The notes beneath the pieces are model-generated. The model did no database searches. It was not told the DNA's origin and saw only the letters and a list, made by a program, of their open reading frames with translations. From NCBI GenBank assembly GCA_023249405.1, contig JAHFCR010000020.1, positions 1-46,653 of the forward strand: 46,653 nucleotides of DNA, in the 5' to 3' direction. Shown piece by piece: positions 4,626-46,535 of the stretch; positions within the stretch are counted from its first letter, which is position 1; each line of letters starts with the position of its first letter. A program made the translations under genes and the position numbers. The DNA comes from Peptococcaceae bacterium (lineage in GTDB: Bacteria > Bacillota > DSM-12270 > Thermacetogeniales > Thermacetogeniaceae).

Positions 4626-5611
4626 AACACTTCTCGCTTTTTCTGCAGGTAGTCCCTGGCAGCGTCGATGACCAACGCCTCCACCTCTTGCAGAGTACCC
4701 TTGACTGTACATCCTGCGGCTCGCATATGCCCTCCGCCACCAAACCGGCCAGCCAGAGCATTGACGTCTGCAAAGCTCTTCGATCGAAATCCGATCCGGA
4801 CCTCGTGATCACCGATCTCCTTGAAGAGCACGGCAATCTCCACCCCGGCGATCGATTTTGGATAATTGATCAAATCTTCGCTTTCTTCCATCCGGCATCC
4901 TTCATCCAGACAATTAAGCCTGGAGATGGTCATCCAGGCAACTTGCCCTTCCTGATCAAGGGACAGAGTGGATAACCCTTTCTGCAGCAGGCGGATGCTG
5001 GCCAGTGTTTTCTGCTCGTTTAAACACTGTTGCACCAGATGGTGGTCTGCTCCACGCTCCAGAAGCAATGAGGCAACCAGATGGCAGCGGTTTGTGGTGT
5101 TCTGGTATCTGAAGGAACCGGTATCGGTTACCAGGGCGGCATACAGATTGGTGGCCACATCCGGAGATATCCCGATCTTCAGAGCAGACAGCACCTGATA
5201 GAGAATCTCCGCGGTTGCCGAGGCGGACGAGTCTACTATATTGACAGCGCCAAAGAAATCATTGCTTACATGGTGGTCAATATTGATCAGGGTCCCACAG
5301 CAGTCGAAAAGCTTATTAACCTCTTCAGGCAGCCGCTCAAGGCCGGTGCAGTCCAGCACGATGCCGCAATCGAAACGTCTCCCGTGCACCCCTTGCGGGG
5401 TTGATACCATCTCAGACCCGGGCAAAAAGTGATACGAGGGCGGCACGGGCTGACCTGAGATGATGGCAACATTCTTACCTATATCCCGCAACGCCAGGCC
5501 TAAACCGATCATAGAGCCGATGGCATCACCGTCGGGATGCATATGGCTGGCCAGGAGAAAGCTGCCGGCGGTTTTAATAACTTCCGCTCCCTGAATACCG
5601 ATCGAAATCAA
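4622..5611 (-). CDS. nrnA: DHH-family phosphoesterase (NrnA-type oligoribonuclease/pAp phosphatase)
   Basis: A 329-residue DHH/DHHA1 phosphoesterase. Metal-binding motifs are SHMHPDGDAIGS (about residue 22), an Asp near residue 87 (VLDCTG) and IDHHVSN (about residue 112). The DHHA1 signature GGGGHMRAAG is near residue 295. NrnA proteins degrade nano-RNAs and dephosphorylate pAp; the assignment rests on family and on the conserved rbfA-nrnA-truB position. Its start overlaps the rbfA stop by four bases. The exact substrate range cannot be told from sequence. Confidence 0.93.
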   Translation of the reverse strand: MISIGIQGAEVIKTAGSFLLASHMHPDGDAIGSMIGLGLALRDIGKNVAIISGQPVPPSYHFLPGSEMVSTPQGVHGRRFDCGIVLDCTGLERLPEEVNKLFDCCGTLINIDHHVSNDFFGAVNIVDSSASATAEILYQVLSALKIGISPDVATNLYAALVTDTGSFRYQNTTNRCHLVASLLLERGADHHLVQQCLNEQKTLASIRLLQKGLSTLSLDQEGQVAWMTISRLNCLDEGCRMEESEDLINYPKSIAGVEIAVLFKEIGDHEVRIGFRSKSFADVNALAGRFGGGGHMRAAGCTVKGTLQEVEALVIDAARDYLQKKREVL

Positions 5612-5970
5612 TCCCCAATCTCTTTATCCATGACCTCGCTGATGAGGTGCGTCAATTCAATGCCTCTTTTTATTGAAGGGTCCAGGGAAAAGGTCAACTC
5701 CGGAAGAAACCTCAGCCGGATTCTTTTCCCCAGTTCCATGCGTATAAAACCACCGGCGCTCTGCAGCCCTACCAGTGTCTGCGACTGCTCCTGCTCGGTT
5801 CCGTAAACGCTCACGAACACCTTAGCATAACGCAGATCCCGGGATACCTCGACATCAGTGATGCTGGTCAGTTTACAGATCCGGGGATCGTTCAATTCTA
5901 CCTGAAGCATGTCGGTGACTTCGCGTTTGATCTCCTCTGCAAGCCTGTGAGGCCGAAAACTCATGATCAT
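5608..5970 (-). CDS. rbfA: 30S ribosome-binding factor A
   Basis: A 120-residue KH-fold ribosome assembly factor, needed for late 16S rRNA 5'-end maturation and cold growth in other bacteria. Recognisable stretches are RPHRLAEEIKREVTDML at the N terminus and the VSRDLRYAKVFVSVYG strand-helix segment. It follows infB by 15 bases and overlaps nrnA by four, the common order. Length and sequence are ordinary. Confidence 0.96.
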   Translation of the reverse strand: MIMSFRPHRLAEEIKREVTDMLQVELNDPRICKLTSITDVEVSRDLRYAKVFVSVYGTEQEQSQTLVGLQSAGGFIRMELGKRIRLRFLPELTFSLDPSIKRGIELTHLISEVMDKEIGD

Positions 5971-5985
5971 TCACCCTTCGTAGAG

Positions 5986-8583
5986 TTAGAGCACTCGTTT
6001 GATCTCTTCGATAGTGTATCCTTCCAGGATATCGTTCTGCTTCATGTCCTGAAACTTATCGAGACCGATGCCGCACTCGAAGCCCGTTTGAACCTCGCGC
6101 ACGTCTTCCTTGAATCGTCTGAGAGAGGCGACAGTCCCTTCATAGATCACAACACCGTCCCTGATCACTCGTACCTTGCCGTTTCTGGTCATTTTACCAT
6201 CCGTGATATAGCCTCCGGCAATAACACCGATCTTCGGAATGCTGAAGATATCCCTGACTTCCGCCCTTCCGACTACAACTTCCCGCAACTCCGGCTCCAG
6301 CAAACCCTCCAGAGCCGCCTTGACATCATCCAGGATCTCATAGATCACCCGGTACAGGCGAATTTCCACCTGCTGCATTTCCGATGTCCGCTTGGCGTTG
6401 ACCTCCGGCCGCACATTGAAGCCGATAATCAGCCCGTTGGAAGCGCTGGCCAGCATAACGTCGGTCTCTGTTATTGCCCCCACACCTGAATGAATAATAT
6501 TCAAACGCACTTCCGATGTGCCCAGTTTCGTAAGGGACTGCAGCAGGGCCTCGACAGAGCCCTGAACGTCAGCCTTGACAACCAGGTTCAATTCTTTGAG
6601 CTTACCCTGCCGGATCTGTTTGAAGAGGTCCTCCAGGGTCACCTTCTCGGGGTTCACATTATCCAGTTGTCGTTTTTGTTTAACCCGTTCGTCAACGATC
6701 TGGCGAGCGAGTTTTTCATCAGTCAGCACATAAAAAGGATCGCCGGCGTTGGGGACTTCAGACAGCCCCAAGATCTCTACCGGTGTTGACGGCGGCGCCT
6801 TTTTCACCCGTCGCCCCTTGAAGTCCATCATCGCCCTGACCCGCCCATAGGCCGTACCAAGCAGGATATAATCCCCGACATACAGGGTGCCCTTCTGGAC
6901 CAGTACCGTGGCTACCGGGCCTCTTCCCTTGTCCAGCCTGGCATCGATCACCGTTCCCCGGGCAGGACGGTTGGGATTGGCCTTGAGTTCCTCCATTTCG
7001 GCTACCAGCAGCAGCATCTCCAGGAGGCGCTCGATCCCATCCTTGGTAGCGGCCGAAACCGGCACACAGATAGTTTCACCGCCCCATTCCTCGGGGACCA
7101 GGGCATACTCCGTCAACTGCTGCTTAACCCGATCCTGATTGGCGTTGGGCTTGTCGATCTTATTGACAGCCACCACGATCGGCACATCAGCCGCTTTGGC
7201 GTGGTTGATCGCTTCTATTGTCTGGGGCATAACCCCGTCATCTGCCGCCACTACCAGAATGGCGATATCGGTCACCTGCGCCCCCCGGGCGCGCATAGAA
7301 GTGAAGGCTTCATGGCCCGGTGTATCTAAAAAGGTGATCTTCTTTCCTTTTAGTTCAACCTGGTAAGCCCCGATGTGCTGAGTGATCCCGCCTGCCTCGG
7401 TAGCGGTAACATTGGTCTGCCGGATGGCATCGAGCAATGATGTCTTGCCATGGTCGACATGGCCCATCACGGTGATCACCGGCGGCTTCAACTCCAGCGC
7501 TGATTCATCGTCGCCCTCATCCTCAAGGGCAACCTCCAATATTGCCTCGCTCTTCTCGATCTCCACATTGGCGCCGAACCCCTGAGCAACCAAAGTAGCC
7601 GTTTCCGCATCGATGATCTGATTTACCGTCACCATGACTCCCAGTTCGATCAGTTTTTTGATCACTAAGCCTGGGTCCACCTGCAATCTGACGGCCAGAT
7701 CCTGTACCGTCACCTGTTCTTCGATGCTGATGGCCTTGGGAAGAGCATTGTCAGTCGCCGGTTGGTGCTGATGATGAGTAGCCGGCTTGTGCCGCCGTTT
7801 GCCATGATTGCGTGCTGATAGAGAGACTACTTTGGAAAGCAGTTTCCGCTGGCTCTGCTCCTGGCTACGCCGCTGCTCTTCTCTTCTTTCCAGGGCTTTT
7901 TTGCGGTAGTCCTCGCGATCGACCACCACCTTCGTGTCTGAGGCCGGTGCAGCTGCCTTGGGCTTCACCTGGTTATCAGTCCGGGTTGGCCTGGCTGGCG
8001 GCTTCGTTTGTTGCGGCGGCCTGGGGCCTGCCGTTTGAGCGGGCCTGGTAGGCTTCGCAGCCTGTCCGGGCCTGGCAGAACCGGACGGTTGTGCCGTTCT
8101 GGCCGGAGCTGACGGCTGGCCCGTTCTGGCCGGAGCTGACGATTGAGACGGCCTGGCCGGAGCTGACGGCTGGCCCGTTCTGGCTGGGGCTGACGATTGA
8201 GACGGCCTGGCTGGACCGGATGGCTGGCTCTGCCTTGGGCCTGAAGGCTGAGCAGATCTTACCGGTCTTGACGCTTGAGCCTCTCTAGACGTACTCGGCG
8301 CCTGAACCGACCTGTTAGTTCCAGGGCCCGGAGCCGCTGGCGCAGGCCTGGTATCCTGGCTCGGTTTAACAGTCTTGACAGCCTGCCCTGCCGGTATTTT
8401 TGGCGCAGGTTGAGGCTGCTTCTCTTTTTTTGTTAATGCCTCTTTGACCCGCCCAATCTCTTCATCCTCCAGAGTGCTCATGTAACTCTTTACGGGCAAA
8501 CCCATCTGCTGTACTTGCTCAAGCAATGCTTTGCTGTTCATTCCTAGTTCCTTAGCTAATTCAAAGACTCGAATTTTTCCCAT
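5986..8583 (-). CDS. infB: Translation initiation factor IF-2
   Basis: An 865-residue GTPase that places initiator fMet-tRNA on the 30S subunit and promotes 50S joining. The IF2_N motif ([20 protein letters not shown]) opens the protein. A low-complexity Pro/Ala/Ser/Gln/Arg linker (about residues 55-215) follows, then a second IF2_N domain. The G domain has GHVDHGKT (G1, near residue 372), DTPGHE (G3) and NKID (G4). Domains II, III and C2 complete it. The linker contains near-identical tandem repeats at the DNA level. It lies between ylxR and rbfA as usual. Confidence 0.98.
8060..8250 (-). repeat. Tandem repeats encoding the IF-2 Pro/Ala-rich linker
   Basis: Near-identical units of about 27 and 54 bases recur inside infB. 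They encode copies of the SAPARTGQP / SAPARPSQS type. Repeats in this linker are common in the family and tolerate length change. They are in frame and need no mobile-element explanation. Confidence 0.75.
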
Positions 8584-8663
8584 TAAATCACCTCCAAGTC
8601 ACCACATACATGTGATATTGCCCTTCTCTGCGCTAGTCTGATGCCCAGGCTGCCCATACCTGA

Positions 8664-8942
8664 TCAGGCAGGAGATTCTACGGCCAATTGGGCCTTCAAG
8701 CCTTCCACGATCTCCGGAGGCAGGTCTACGTGCAATGCCCGTTGCAGCTTCTTTCCGGTTAAGGCCAGTCCCAGGCACCCGAGATCCCGGCACAGGTAAG
8801 CGCCTCTTCCTGAGAGCTTGCCTGTGGCATCGATCTTTACCTGCAGGTCCGGTGTTCTGACTATTCTAATCAACTCTTTTTTGTTTTTATTCTGCTGACA
8901 ACCCACGCATATCCGTTGGGGGATTTTCCTTACTCTACCCAT
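8664..8942 (-). CDS. ylxR: YlxR family RNA-binding protein (RnpM)
   Basis: A 92-residue YlxR protein with the diagnostic RICVGC motif near residue 10 and SGRGAYLC near residue 45. The family sits between nusA and infB in most Bacillota. A B. subtilis member has been described as a modulator of RNase P (RnpM). The start overlaps the nusA stop by eight bases, implying coupling. The L7Ae-like ylxQ gene that usually follows is absent: about 80 non-coding bases lead straight to infB. Confidence 0.93.
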   Translation of the reverse strand: MGRVRKIPQRICVGCQQNKNKKELIRIVRTPDLQVKIDATGKLSGRGAYLCRDLGCLGLALTGKKLQRALHVDLPPEIVEGLKAQLAVESPA

Positions 8943-10023
8943 CGCTGCTGTTCACCTCGCAGTCGAGGTCATTAGCGCTCTCTTCCTTATCCCGCATTTG
9001 GGACAGGCTCTTGATGTCAATTTTCCAGCCAGTTAGTCGGGCCGCCAGGCGGGCATTTTGTCCTTCCTTGCCGATGGCCAGAGAAAGCTGATGATCAGGA
9101 ACGGTTACGCGGGCGACTTTATCTTCCTCATCGATCCCGACGGCGATCGGCTTGGCCGGGCTCAGGGCGTTGGCGACAAATTCCATCGGGCTATTGTCCC
9201 ACTTGATAATATCGATCTTTTCACCTTTCAGTTCATTGACGATCGCCTGTACCCTCATTCCCTTCGGACCAACGCAGGCGCCTATGGAATCCACGTTCTC
9301 ATCCCTGGAGTAGACCGCGATTTTGGAACGGCTGCCAGGTTCTCTGGCAACAGCCTTGAGTTCCACTATCCCCTCGTAGATCTCCGGGACCTCTAATTCA
9401 AAAAGGCGTTTGACCAATCCGGGATGAGTCCTGGAAACCAGGATCTGTGGACCCTTGGTGGTTTTTTTAACCTCGATGACGTAGGTCTTGATCCGGTCGC
9501 CCCGATTATGTTTTTCGGTTGGTATCTGTTCGCTTGGAGCAAGCAAGGCCTCGGCCCGGCCCAGATCTATAAAAACATTCTTGGCCTCCTGGCGCCGGAT
9601 CACCCCTGTTACAATGTCCCCCTCCCGGCTCAGGTATTCTTCGTAGATCAGGCCGCGCTCCGCTTCCCTGATCTGCTGCATGACCACCTGTTTGGCAGCC
9701 TGGGCGGCAATTCGGCCAAAATTCTTCGGTGTTACCTCCACCTCTACAGTATCCCCAAGGGCCGCCTCGGTATCGCTCTCGTCAACATCTCCGGCAGCGA
9801 TCTCCATGCGCTCGTCGGACACTGTATCCACTACCACTTTGAGAGCATAAACTTTAATTTCACCGGTTTCCCTTTCGATCTCGATCCGGCAATTTTGAGC
9901 AGAACCAAAATTTTTCCGAAATGCGGTCAGCAGGGCATGTTCAGTAGCCTGCAACAGGAACTCCACGCTAATGCCTTTTTCTTTTTCGATCTCTTTGAGG
10001 GCATTAATAAAATCAGCGTTCAT
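8935..10023 (-). CDS. nusA: Transcription termination/antitermination protein NusA
   Basis: A 362-residue protein of the short Gram-positive type without the C-terminal acidic repeats. It has an N-terminal RNA polymerase-binding domain (about 1-125), an S1 domain (about 135-200) and tandem KH domains (about 205-345) with the GPKGMR and GKEGQNARLAARLTGW signatures. It binds elongating RNA polymerase and affects pausing and rRNA antitermination. The ATG is preceded by GGGAGGACGCATAA. Unusually it is the first gene after a promoter; rimP normally precedes it. Confidence 0.97.
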   Translation of the reverse strand: MNADFINALKEIEKEKGISVEFLLQATEHALLTAFRKNFGSAQNCRIEIERETGEIKVYALKVVVDTVSDERMEIAAGDVDESDTEAALGDTVEVEVTPKNFGRIAAQAAKQVVMQQIREAERGLIYEEYLSREGDIVTGVIRRQEAKNVFIDLGRAEALLAPSEQIPTEKHNRGDRIKTYVIEVKKTTKGPQILVSRTHPGLVKRLFELEVPEIYEGIVELKAVAREPGSRSKIAVYSRDENVDSIGACVGPKGMRVQAIVNELKGEKIDIIKWDNSPMEFVANALSPAKPIAVGIDEEDKVARVTVPDHQLSLAIGKEGQNARLAARLTGWKIDIKSLSQMRDKEESANDLDCEVNSSDG

Positions 10024-10103
10024 TTATGCGTCCTCCCGATCCTTTCAAAGGTTCGCGACCTGGGCCGTCCAATGTTGATAACGTAATATAGATCAAATAA
10101 TAT

Positions 10104-10130
10104 TTAAGAGTGGGCATGAACCCACTCCAT
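10104..10130 (-). promoter_or_regulatory. nusA leader hairpin overlapping a nine-codon micro-ORF
   Basis: GAGTGGG and CCCACTC form a 7-bp stem with a 6-base loop about 85 bases upstream of nusA. The same bases can be read as ATG-initiated MEWVHAHS followed by TAA, with a GGGGAGG ribosome-binding site six bases before the ATG. As I recall, GAGTGGG-type hairpins are common in the leader just before rimP in Bacillota. The hairpin may therefore be the preserved rimP leader. Whether the micro-ORF is translated is unknown. Confidence 0.45.
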
Positions 10131-10203
10131 CAGCAACCTCCCCAAAATAATTACCTTACCTATTGCCAGGTGTAATCTTAAAATCACAAACACGCTCAAA
10201 AAA

Positions 10204-10232
10204 ATTATATCAAAACGTCATGCGTTCCGCAA
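10204..10232 (-). promoter_or_regulatory. Sigma-A promoter of the nusA operon
   Basis: TTGCGG and a consensus TATAAT are separated by 17 bases, just downstream of proS. Transcription would start about 175 bases before nusA, giving a long leader with the GAGTGGG hairpin. This separates the nusA-ribF unit from the isoprenoid/proS unit upstream. Confidence 0.65.
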
Positions 10233-10242
10233 CACTTACACC

Positions 10243-11955
10243 TTAATTGTTTGAAACAAGTTTGCTGCGCAGGTAGGTACAGAGATCTGCATAGGGAATT
10301 TTTTCAACATTGCCCGTATTCCGCCATTTAACTTCCACCAGTCGATCTACTACTGAGCCATCGTTGATCACGACCCGCACCGGATACCCGATCAGGTCCG
10401 CGTCTTTAAATTTCACTCCAGTCCTTTCGGCTCTGTTATCGTAGATAGCATCTATGCCCGAGGCGAACAACTGTTGGTACAACGCCTCTGCCAGGTTTGT
10501 CTGCAAGGCATCGCGCTGGCTGACCGGTATGACCACGACTTCATACGGGGCAATGCTATACGGCCAGATAATCCCGTCTTTGTCATGCCCCTGCTCGACG
10601 GCAGCAGCCAGAGTCCGGGTAACCCCGATGCCATAACAGCCCATCACCATGGGGACCTCCTTGCCGCCCTCGTCCAAGATAGTTGCACCCAGAACTTTGC
10701 TATATTTCGTTCCCAACTTGAACAGCTGTCCCACCTCAATACCCCGCCTCAACTGGACCGGCTGGCCACACTTGGGGCAGGCGTCCCCTTCCCGGGCGAC
10801 ACGAAAATCATCGAAGGCATATACCTGGTAATCTCTACCATAATTCACGTTGCGGTAATGGTGATCTGGCTCGTTTGCTCCCGCCACTCCGTTGGCCAGG
10901 TGCCTGACCTCATTGTCTGCCAGTACCCTGACCTGGGATTGAAGTCCTACGGGTCCAGCGAAGCCTGGCGGCAAGCCAAACTTGGCAGCCACATCCTCAG
11001 CATTAGCTATTTCCAATCGTATGGCCTGAAGATAGTTTTGTACCTTGATCTCATTTACGCTGCGGTCGCCCCTGATCAGAACAGCTACGGGCTCGCCGTC
11101 CGCCAGGTACAGCATGATCTTCAATACCTGCATCGCTGGAATGCCAAGATATTTGGCAACCTCTTCAACAGTGCGCGTACCCGGTGTGCGCACCCGCTCC
11201 AGTGGCTGTTTCTCGATAGCCGCTGGCTGGCCATCCACGGGACAGGGGGCTTTTTCAATGTCCGCAGCATAATCACAGGCCGTGCAGAAGATGATCTCCG
11301 CTTCACCGGTGTCTGCCATCACCATGAACTCGTGAGTGTCTCCCCCTCCGATAGCGCCCGGATCTGCCTCGACTACCCTGATAGAAAGACCACAACGGTC
11401 GAAAATGCGGCTGTAGGCAGTATACATCTTACCATAGCTGATTTCGAGTCCCTGCTCATCAATGTCGAAGGAATACAGGTCCTTCATGATGAATTCCCGG
11501 CCGCGCAGCAGTCCGAAACGCGGCCTGCGCTCATCCCGGTATTTGTTCTGGATCTGGTAGAGCAACAGGGGGAGTTGCCGGTAAGATTTGATCTCCTGGC
11601 CTACCAGGTCCGTTATCAGCTCTTCATGCGTTGGCCCCAGACAGAAGCCGCGCTCATGCCGGTCTTTCAAGCGAAACATCTCCGGACCGTAAACATCCCA
11701 TCTGCCGCTCTGCTGCCAGATCTCTGCCGGCTGAATGATCGGCATCAGCAGTTCGATACCCCCGGCCCGGTTCATCTCTTCCCGGACAATCCTCTCTATT
11801 TTTAGCAGCACCCGGTGCCCCAGGGGCAGGATGGAATAGATCCCCGCCGCTACCTTGCGCAGCATGCCGGCCCTGAGCAGCAACTGGTGGCTGATGGTGT
11901 CCGCCTCTGCCGGTATCTCTCTCAATGTGGGGATGAACGCCTCAGTCGCTCGCAT
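10243..11955 (-). CDS. proS: Proline--tRNA ligase (bacterial type, with editing domain)
   Basis: A 570-residue class II prolyl-tRNA synthetase. Motif 2 region has GPTHEEL (about residue 143). The INS editing domain (about 220-400) removes mischarged alanine. Motif 3 is GCYGIGVTRTLAAAVEQ (about 442-458), and an anticodon-binding domain ends the protein. Length is normal for the editing form. Its start overlaps the ispG stop by 14 bases. Gene order ispG-proS is usual; the next expected genes, polC and rimP, are missing. Confidence 0.98.
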   Translation of the reverse strand: MRATEAFIPTLREIPAEADTISHQLLLRAGMLRKVAAGIYSILPLGHRVLLKIERIVREEMNRAGGIELLMPIIQPAEIWQQSGRWDVYGPEMFRLKDRHERGFCLGPTHEELITDLVGQEIKSYRQLPLLLYQIQNKYRDERRPRFGLLRGREFIMKDLYSFDIDEQGLEISYGKMYTAYSRIFDRCGLSIRVVEADPGAIGGGDTHEFMVMADTGEAEIIFCTACDYAADIEKAPCPVDGQPAAIEKQPLERVRTPGTRTVEEVAKYLGIPAMQVLKIMLYLADGEPVAVLIRGDRSVNEIKVQNYLQAIRLEIANAEDVAAKFGLPPGFAGPVGLQSQVRVLADNEVRHLANGVAGANEPDHHYRNVNYGRDYQVYAFDDFRVAREGDACPKCGQPVQLRRGIEVGQLFKLGTKYSKVLGATILDEGGKEVPMVMGCYGIGVTRTLAAAVEQGHDKDGIIWPYSIAPYEVVVIPVSQRDALQTNLAEALYQQLFASGIDAIYDNRAERTGVKFKDADLIGYPVRVVINDGSVVDRLVEVKWRNTGNVEKIPYADLCTYLRSKLVSNN

Positions 11956-46257: not shown

Positions 46258-46535
46258 CAATAAAAAAACCCTCGTCCGTCTAGGACGAAGGTTGACCTCC
46301 GTGGTACCACCCAAGTTTGTACAAGTGTACACGCTCATTCAGGTACGGGCGTAAATGCCGATACCCTTCCCCGATAACGGTGGGATTCCGTTGAAGTCTA
46401 CTCTCCTCGGATTTCGGTTCACAGCTCAGAGGCTACCTTCTATATACCCGTCTGGGGGATTTTCCACCGCCATCCCCTCTCTATGTTTCAGGAGTATATA
46501 TACTCCTCCTCTTCATAGCCTTTCCGGAGTATTTT
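46258..46535 (-). promoter_or_regulatory. T-box riboswitch leader of ilvBN, probably isoleucine-specific
   Basis: The T-box core GGGTGGTACCACGG lies at 46299-46312 and the terminator at 46262-46291. Upstream are a Stem I with AGAGAGGGGATGGCGGTGG-like loop elements and a conserved GAGAGTAGAC linker. The likely specifier loop reads GAA-ATC at 46410-46415, so the specifier would be ATC (Ile). Uncharged tRNA would stabilise the antiterminator and switch on the ilv operon. The specifier call is by eye. Confidence 0.88.
46262..46291 (-). terminator. Intrinsic terminator of the T-box leader
   Basis: A CCTTCGTCC/GGACGAGG stem with one bulged base and a five-base loop is followed by seven Us on the minus strand. 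Its 5' arm lies just after the T-box bulge sequence, so antiterminator and terminator compete, as in the standard T-box design. Confidence 0.85.

Follow-up and report, generated by a model that had tools for sequence, protein, structure and literature searches.

In the genus represented by the DNA analysed here, rimP has been deleted from between its leader and nusA, and the promoter and attenuator that formerly preceded rimP appear to be retained as a NusA-responsive control of nusA and the genes that follow it, a reading to which we assign a probability of about 0.8. The whole stretch that was analysed (the window) comprises 46,653 nucleotides from a Peptococcaceae bacterium. Its minus strand carries, in order, ispG, proS (10243..11955), a 219-nt gap (10024-10242), nusA (8935..10023, with matches to the NusA_N, S1, and KH_5 domains), ylxR (8664..8942), infB (5986..8583), and rbfA (5608..5970), a further 30S assembly factor gene that is kept. 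As the earlier note had claimed, the gap contains no rimP. The gene directly upstream of nusA is proS. The gap holds, all on the minus strand, a promoter with a weak −35 element TTGCGG (10227..10232, 3/6 to consensus) and a perfect −10 element TATAAT (10204..10209), an SD-like GGGGAGG (10136..10142), and directly 3' of it the hairpin GAGTGGG-TTCATG-CCCACTC (10127..10108), a putative attenuator stem that leads straight to nusA and is the sole exact match within the window. The stem is followed by the tract TTAAATATTATT (10096..10107), which is interrupted compared with TTTCATATTAT in relatives, and by the nusA ribosome-binding site GGGAGG (10032..10037). The element GGTCGCGAACCTTTGAA (10044..10060), 5' of this site, is invariant in all three genomes of the genus, and the spacer around it has diverged (congener loci L131 and L132).

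A search of the genome for rimP and a comparison of nusA upstream regions, both proposed in the earlier note, were carried out. The window's genome (G000; 98.8% complete, 168 contigs, 3.6 Mb) gave no match to the Pfam model RimP_N, which was positive in 10 of 14 control genomes. Likewise, a RimP profile built from nine proteins, eight of them from the window's own family, found nothing in G000 at a cut-off of E<=10; the same profile recovered the positive controls G003 and G172, each of which had contributed a row, and also G134 and G343, which had contributed none. With no RimP found in G000 by either method, the loss named in the earlier note stands and the relocation offered beside it falls away. 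The two congeners, G001 and G002, which are only 84% and 71% complete, yielded no accepted RimP by either method, a single weak profile match in G001 (E 0.05, inside a 338-aa frame) having been rejected.

The order proS, promoter, hairpin, nusA, without rimP in between, was found in all three genomes of the genus. In the rest of the family, rimP sits between the hairpin and nusA in 12 of 12 rimP-bearing loci examined, and proS precedes rimP in L133, L134, and L136, the three checked loci with a long enough stretch. RimP_N was present in 15 of the family's 20 genomes; the five without it are the three of the genus, G009, which is also without a NusA_N match, and G010, whose nusA lies 131 nt from a contig end, and the misses in G009 and G010 are assembly gaps. 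Because rimP is absent from the genus and present at the same spot elsewhere in the family, it was deleted at the genus level, and the arrangement is neither a relocation nor an ancestral state. Thus RimP is missing from a near-complete genome and rimP is found in sister genera, the pattern of a lineage-specific loss. The deletion is also as clean as had been suspected, since the 86-91 nt spacer contains no convincing rimP sequence. Nucleotide alignments of the spacer to 12 relatives did no better than chance: of 200 shuffles each, 75 were equally good in the case of the window, 124 for G001, and 186 for G002. Moreover, scanning the spacer translations with the RimP profile gave no match in the window (14/100 shuffles as good) or G001 (58/100); one match in G002, to an SRTFEG-like stretch, was equalled by 0/100 shuffles and is probably due to chance.

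The state of the locus was further evaluated in a phylum sample of 398 genomes with a completeness of at least 95%. RimP_N was present in 386 of them, which speaks against the class-wide ancestral arrangement, with rimP located elsewhere, that the earlier note had named as the alternative. Four of the 12 genomes without RimP_N (G239, G253, G315, and G345) are also without a NusA_N match, and in G237 the nusA match begins at a contig edge; in these the region therefore looks unassembled, and they were not counted as losses. In G266, nusA is preceded by a rimP-leader-like hairpin, GGAGTGGG...CCCACTCC (L146), with no RimP match between; a relative, G343, has the very divergent RimP that the profile recovered, and G266 possibly carries a decayed or very divergent rimP. 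The remaining six genomes represent three lineages: G000, the genus g17 of family f10 (G028, G150, and G250), and the family f76 (G149 and G282), which is possibly the Sulfobacillaceae. RimP_N was found in none of the 34 f76 genomes, which span 11 genera and include one assembled in a single contig (G431) and two in two contigs (G282 and G429), and in none of the five g17 genomes, whereas the single genome of the other f10 genus has it. The nine-protein profile also found nothing in the eight f76 and five g17 genomes searched. A NusA match was present in 32 of the 34 f76 genomes, and in all 30 loci read, from 11 genera, the hairpin stands 65-94 nt before nusA without rimP. In g17, the hairpin was found neither in three loci nor in two genomes searched in full; nusA can thus live without the leader, as g17 has lost both rimP and leader. 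In a NusA phylogeny of 52 selected sequences, three changes of the rimP label were forced by well supported branches, with the bootstrap not fully settled. Taken together, rimP was lost independently three times, and the leader was retained in two of these lineages.

These data also bear on the possibility that rimP is present and was missed because it has moved, diverged strongly, or fallen into an assembly gap. The G000 assembly consists of 168 contigs, and the RimP of one other family is so divergent that matches drop to E 2e-8. However, the locus lies on one contig in each of the three genus genomes with an empty interval between leader and nusA, the nine-protein profile, drawn almost entirely from the window's family, gave no match in G000 at E<=10, and closed and near-closed f76 genomes are in the same state. 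We therefore regard an overlooked rimP as very improbable.

The sequence of the hairpin indicates that it corresponds to the published rimP-leader attenuator, from which the element's name was taken, and the earlier note's association of this hairpin type with rimP leaders held, with the refinement that the proposed regulator is NusA. The rimP-leader was described as the most ubiquitous attenuator of a survey, with a sequence-conserved terminator stem and no antiterminator; NusA was given as the best candidate regulator, and feedback by RimP was left open (Naville and Gautheret, 2010; PMC2965389). The window element shares with the description in PMC2965389 a short, sequence-conserved stem, with GGG in the 5' arm and CCC in the 3' arm, no visible antiterminator, NusA as the suggested regulator, and a position before the operon, rimP itself being absent. 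Its stem lies 103 nt from nusA, within the 4-130 nt given in PMC2965389, although the published range refers to the distance to rimP. In contrast to the published element, which precedes rimP, the window leader stands directly before nusA, has an interrupted U-tract, and carries an SD-like GGAGG 5' of the stem. Both synteny and the promoter show that it descends from the leader that stood before rimP. No Rfam family matched the window leader, the only match being a chance snoRNA with E 0.64. Because the proposed regulator is NusA, the hairpin's presence alone need not mean that its function is connected with rimP.

Genome-wide, G000 has only one site that matches a looser pattern, GAGTGGGN(2-14)CCCACTC, and the hairpin was found at one place per genome in all eight leader-bearing genomes tested. 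In the genus it lies 103-108 nt from nusA (3/3 genomes). Among 80 nusA loci used for comparison, a RimP match was found upstream of nusA in 78, two being too short to judge, and a strict GTGGG...CCCAC hairpin was found in 67, at 541-896 nt before nusA; of the others, two were too short and 11 were without the strict hairpin, one of them with AGCGGG...CCCGCT instead.

The promoter, described in the earlier note as a good one, has a perfect −10 element and a weak −35 element. TTGCGG-17-TATAAT was not listed by a consensus scan because the −35 element is weak. A related promoter (TTGCGG/TTGCAG/TTGCAT-17/18-TATAAT) was found 5' of the hairpin in 14 of 15 family loci tested, that is, in 3/3 of the genus and 11/12 of the rimP-bearing relatives, with no match in L119. 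As most of these loci carry rimP, the window promoter is the inherited, former rimP promoter.

Retention of the hairpin might reflect no function at all, the element being a decaying leftover of the rimP deletion. Such decay would be consistent with the U-tract, which is interrupted in all three genus genomes, and with the terminator scan, which did not list the hairpin. After CCCAC, the genus reads TCTTAAATATTAT in 3/3 genomes and same-family relatives mostly read TCTTTCATATTAT, the tract having the form TTAAATATT in the genus versus TTTCATATT. TCTTT is present in 59 of 67 rimP-bearing leaders and kept in 30/30 f76 loci; TCTTA is present in 0/67, and the genus tract is TCTTAA. The window tract TTAAATAT has 4 T of 8, below the threshold of the terminator scan. 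Nevertheless, the 7-bp stem is perfect in all three genus genomes despite a differing loop and an otherwise diverged spacer, its energy is equal in the genus and in relatives with rimP (medians of −16.3 and −16.2 kcal/mol, respectively), and f76 retains the hairpin in every locus read. We therefore consider a functionless relic unlikely. Given the interrupted tract, termination in the genus may be weaker, more dependent on NusA, or replaced by pausing.

According to our preferred reading, in which the leader serves nusA, a deletion between leader and nusA would have removed rimP in the genus, and promoter and attenuator would have persisted by virtue of their control over nusA and the downstream genes. 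RNA polymerase would initiate downstream of the promoter (10204-10232) and transcribe the hairpin, where NusA would raise termination or pausing and thereby restrict transcription of its own gene; at low NusA levels, more of the polymerases would read through. The genus version of this control is probably weaker, more NusA-dependent, or pause-like, as its U-tract is interrupted. That NusA would act on the window hairpin is extrapolated from the published proposal and from Bacillus subtilis, where NusA is autoregulated through NusA-stimulated termination in the 5' leader (2025 review, PMC12288461). Both systems have a leader terminator before a NusA-encoding operon; unlike that of B. subtilis, the window operon is without rimP, and its NusA-stimulated termination is putative. 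The autoregulation statement of the review reportedly goes back to Mondal 2016.

Two lineages without rimP have retained the leader immediately upstream of nusA, in one case throughout 11 genera; this suggests that selection maintains the leader for the sake of nusA and not of rimP. Furthermore, since RimP is absent from these leader-keeping lineages, it cannot be the regulator there. The uncoupling of the attenuator from its namesake gene is thus evidence for nusA as the target. The rimP-leader attenuator and its proposed control by NusA were already known (PMC2965389); what is new is a family in which all sampled genomes are without RimP yet every locus read has the hairpin before nusA. Against the preferred reading stand the loss of the leader in g17, the TCTTAA tract of the genus, the silence of the terminator scan, the incompleteness of G001 and G002, the weak profile match in G001, and the fragmentation of the G000 assembly, which leaves a small chance of a hidden rimP.

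The SD-like motif was also compared among leaders. Of 18 family leaders, with or without rimP, 17 carry GGAGG within 25 nt 5' of the stem, versus 1/67 comparison loci and 1/30 f76 loci. This distribution would suit a family leader that senses free 30S subunits, in which a 30S bound to GGAGG blocks the hairpin and thereby causes readthrough. However, no start codon or peptide is conserved, the ATG in the window leader being AGG in both congeners, and such sensing leaves the element outside the window's family unexplained; we consider it a quite improbable account. A leader peptide, MEWVHAHS, across the hairpin was tried as a candidate and rejected on the absence of this ATG from both congeners. 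Somewhat less remote, though still doubtful, is the combined idea that rimP was lost at least three times from medium-sized genomes of the phylum, with nusA staying in place, that the rimP-less lineages complete the 30S central pseudoknot through a yet undescribed substitute factor or modified pathway, and that an attenuator sensing nusA gained an SD-like 30S-binding site in the family.

RimP stabilizes the central pseudoknot and helps S5 and S12 join; it is reported to be strongly conserved among bacteria, and its loss by deletion to slow growth in Gram-negatives and to be lethal in Streptococcus pneumoniae (review PMC9032327). An effect of the rimP loss on 30S assembly, as the earlier note supposed, is plausible and remains putative. 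S12, the reported partner of RimP, was found in 31 of 32 genomes searched, giving 30 loci and 27 proteins (16 rimP-less and 11 rimP-bearing; three rimP-bearing ones were not extracted), and comparison of these 27 proteins revealed no change common to the three rimP-less lineages. Changes confined to the genus are A in place of P in PQKRG, M in place of L in VVLVRGG, and T in place of V in GVQ. Loss of RimP has a precedent in the Mollicutes, where few members have RimP and RbfA is retained (PMC4014445), just as the window retains rbfA. Mollicutes genomes are reduced, in contrast to that of G000 (3.6 Mb) and those of f76 (up to 5 Mb). The passages on RimP loss consulted in PMC4014445 make no mention of leader retention, and in the literature searched we found no account of a rimP loss with a retained leader. 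The rimP-less lineages, among them an entire family (34 genomes sampled), represent natural models for learning which 30S assembly step can be bypassed.

Two further observations were made in the window. The gene ylxQ (L7Ae/L30e family) is absent between ylxR and infB in all three genus genomes (window gap 8584-8663): at this site only chance matches or none were obtained in the window, G001, and G002, and clear ones in G003, G014, G010, and G018. In the congener loci L131 and L132, a CAGTGGRGG-type hairpin occupies the ylxR-infB gap where relatives have ylxQ. In addition, a T-box leader was detected at 46278-46525 on the minus strand, with a score of 109 bits.
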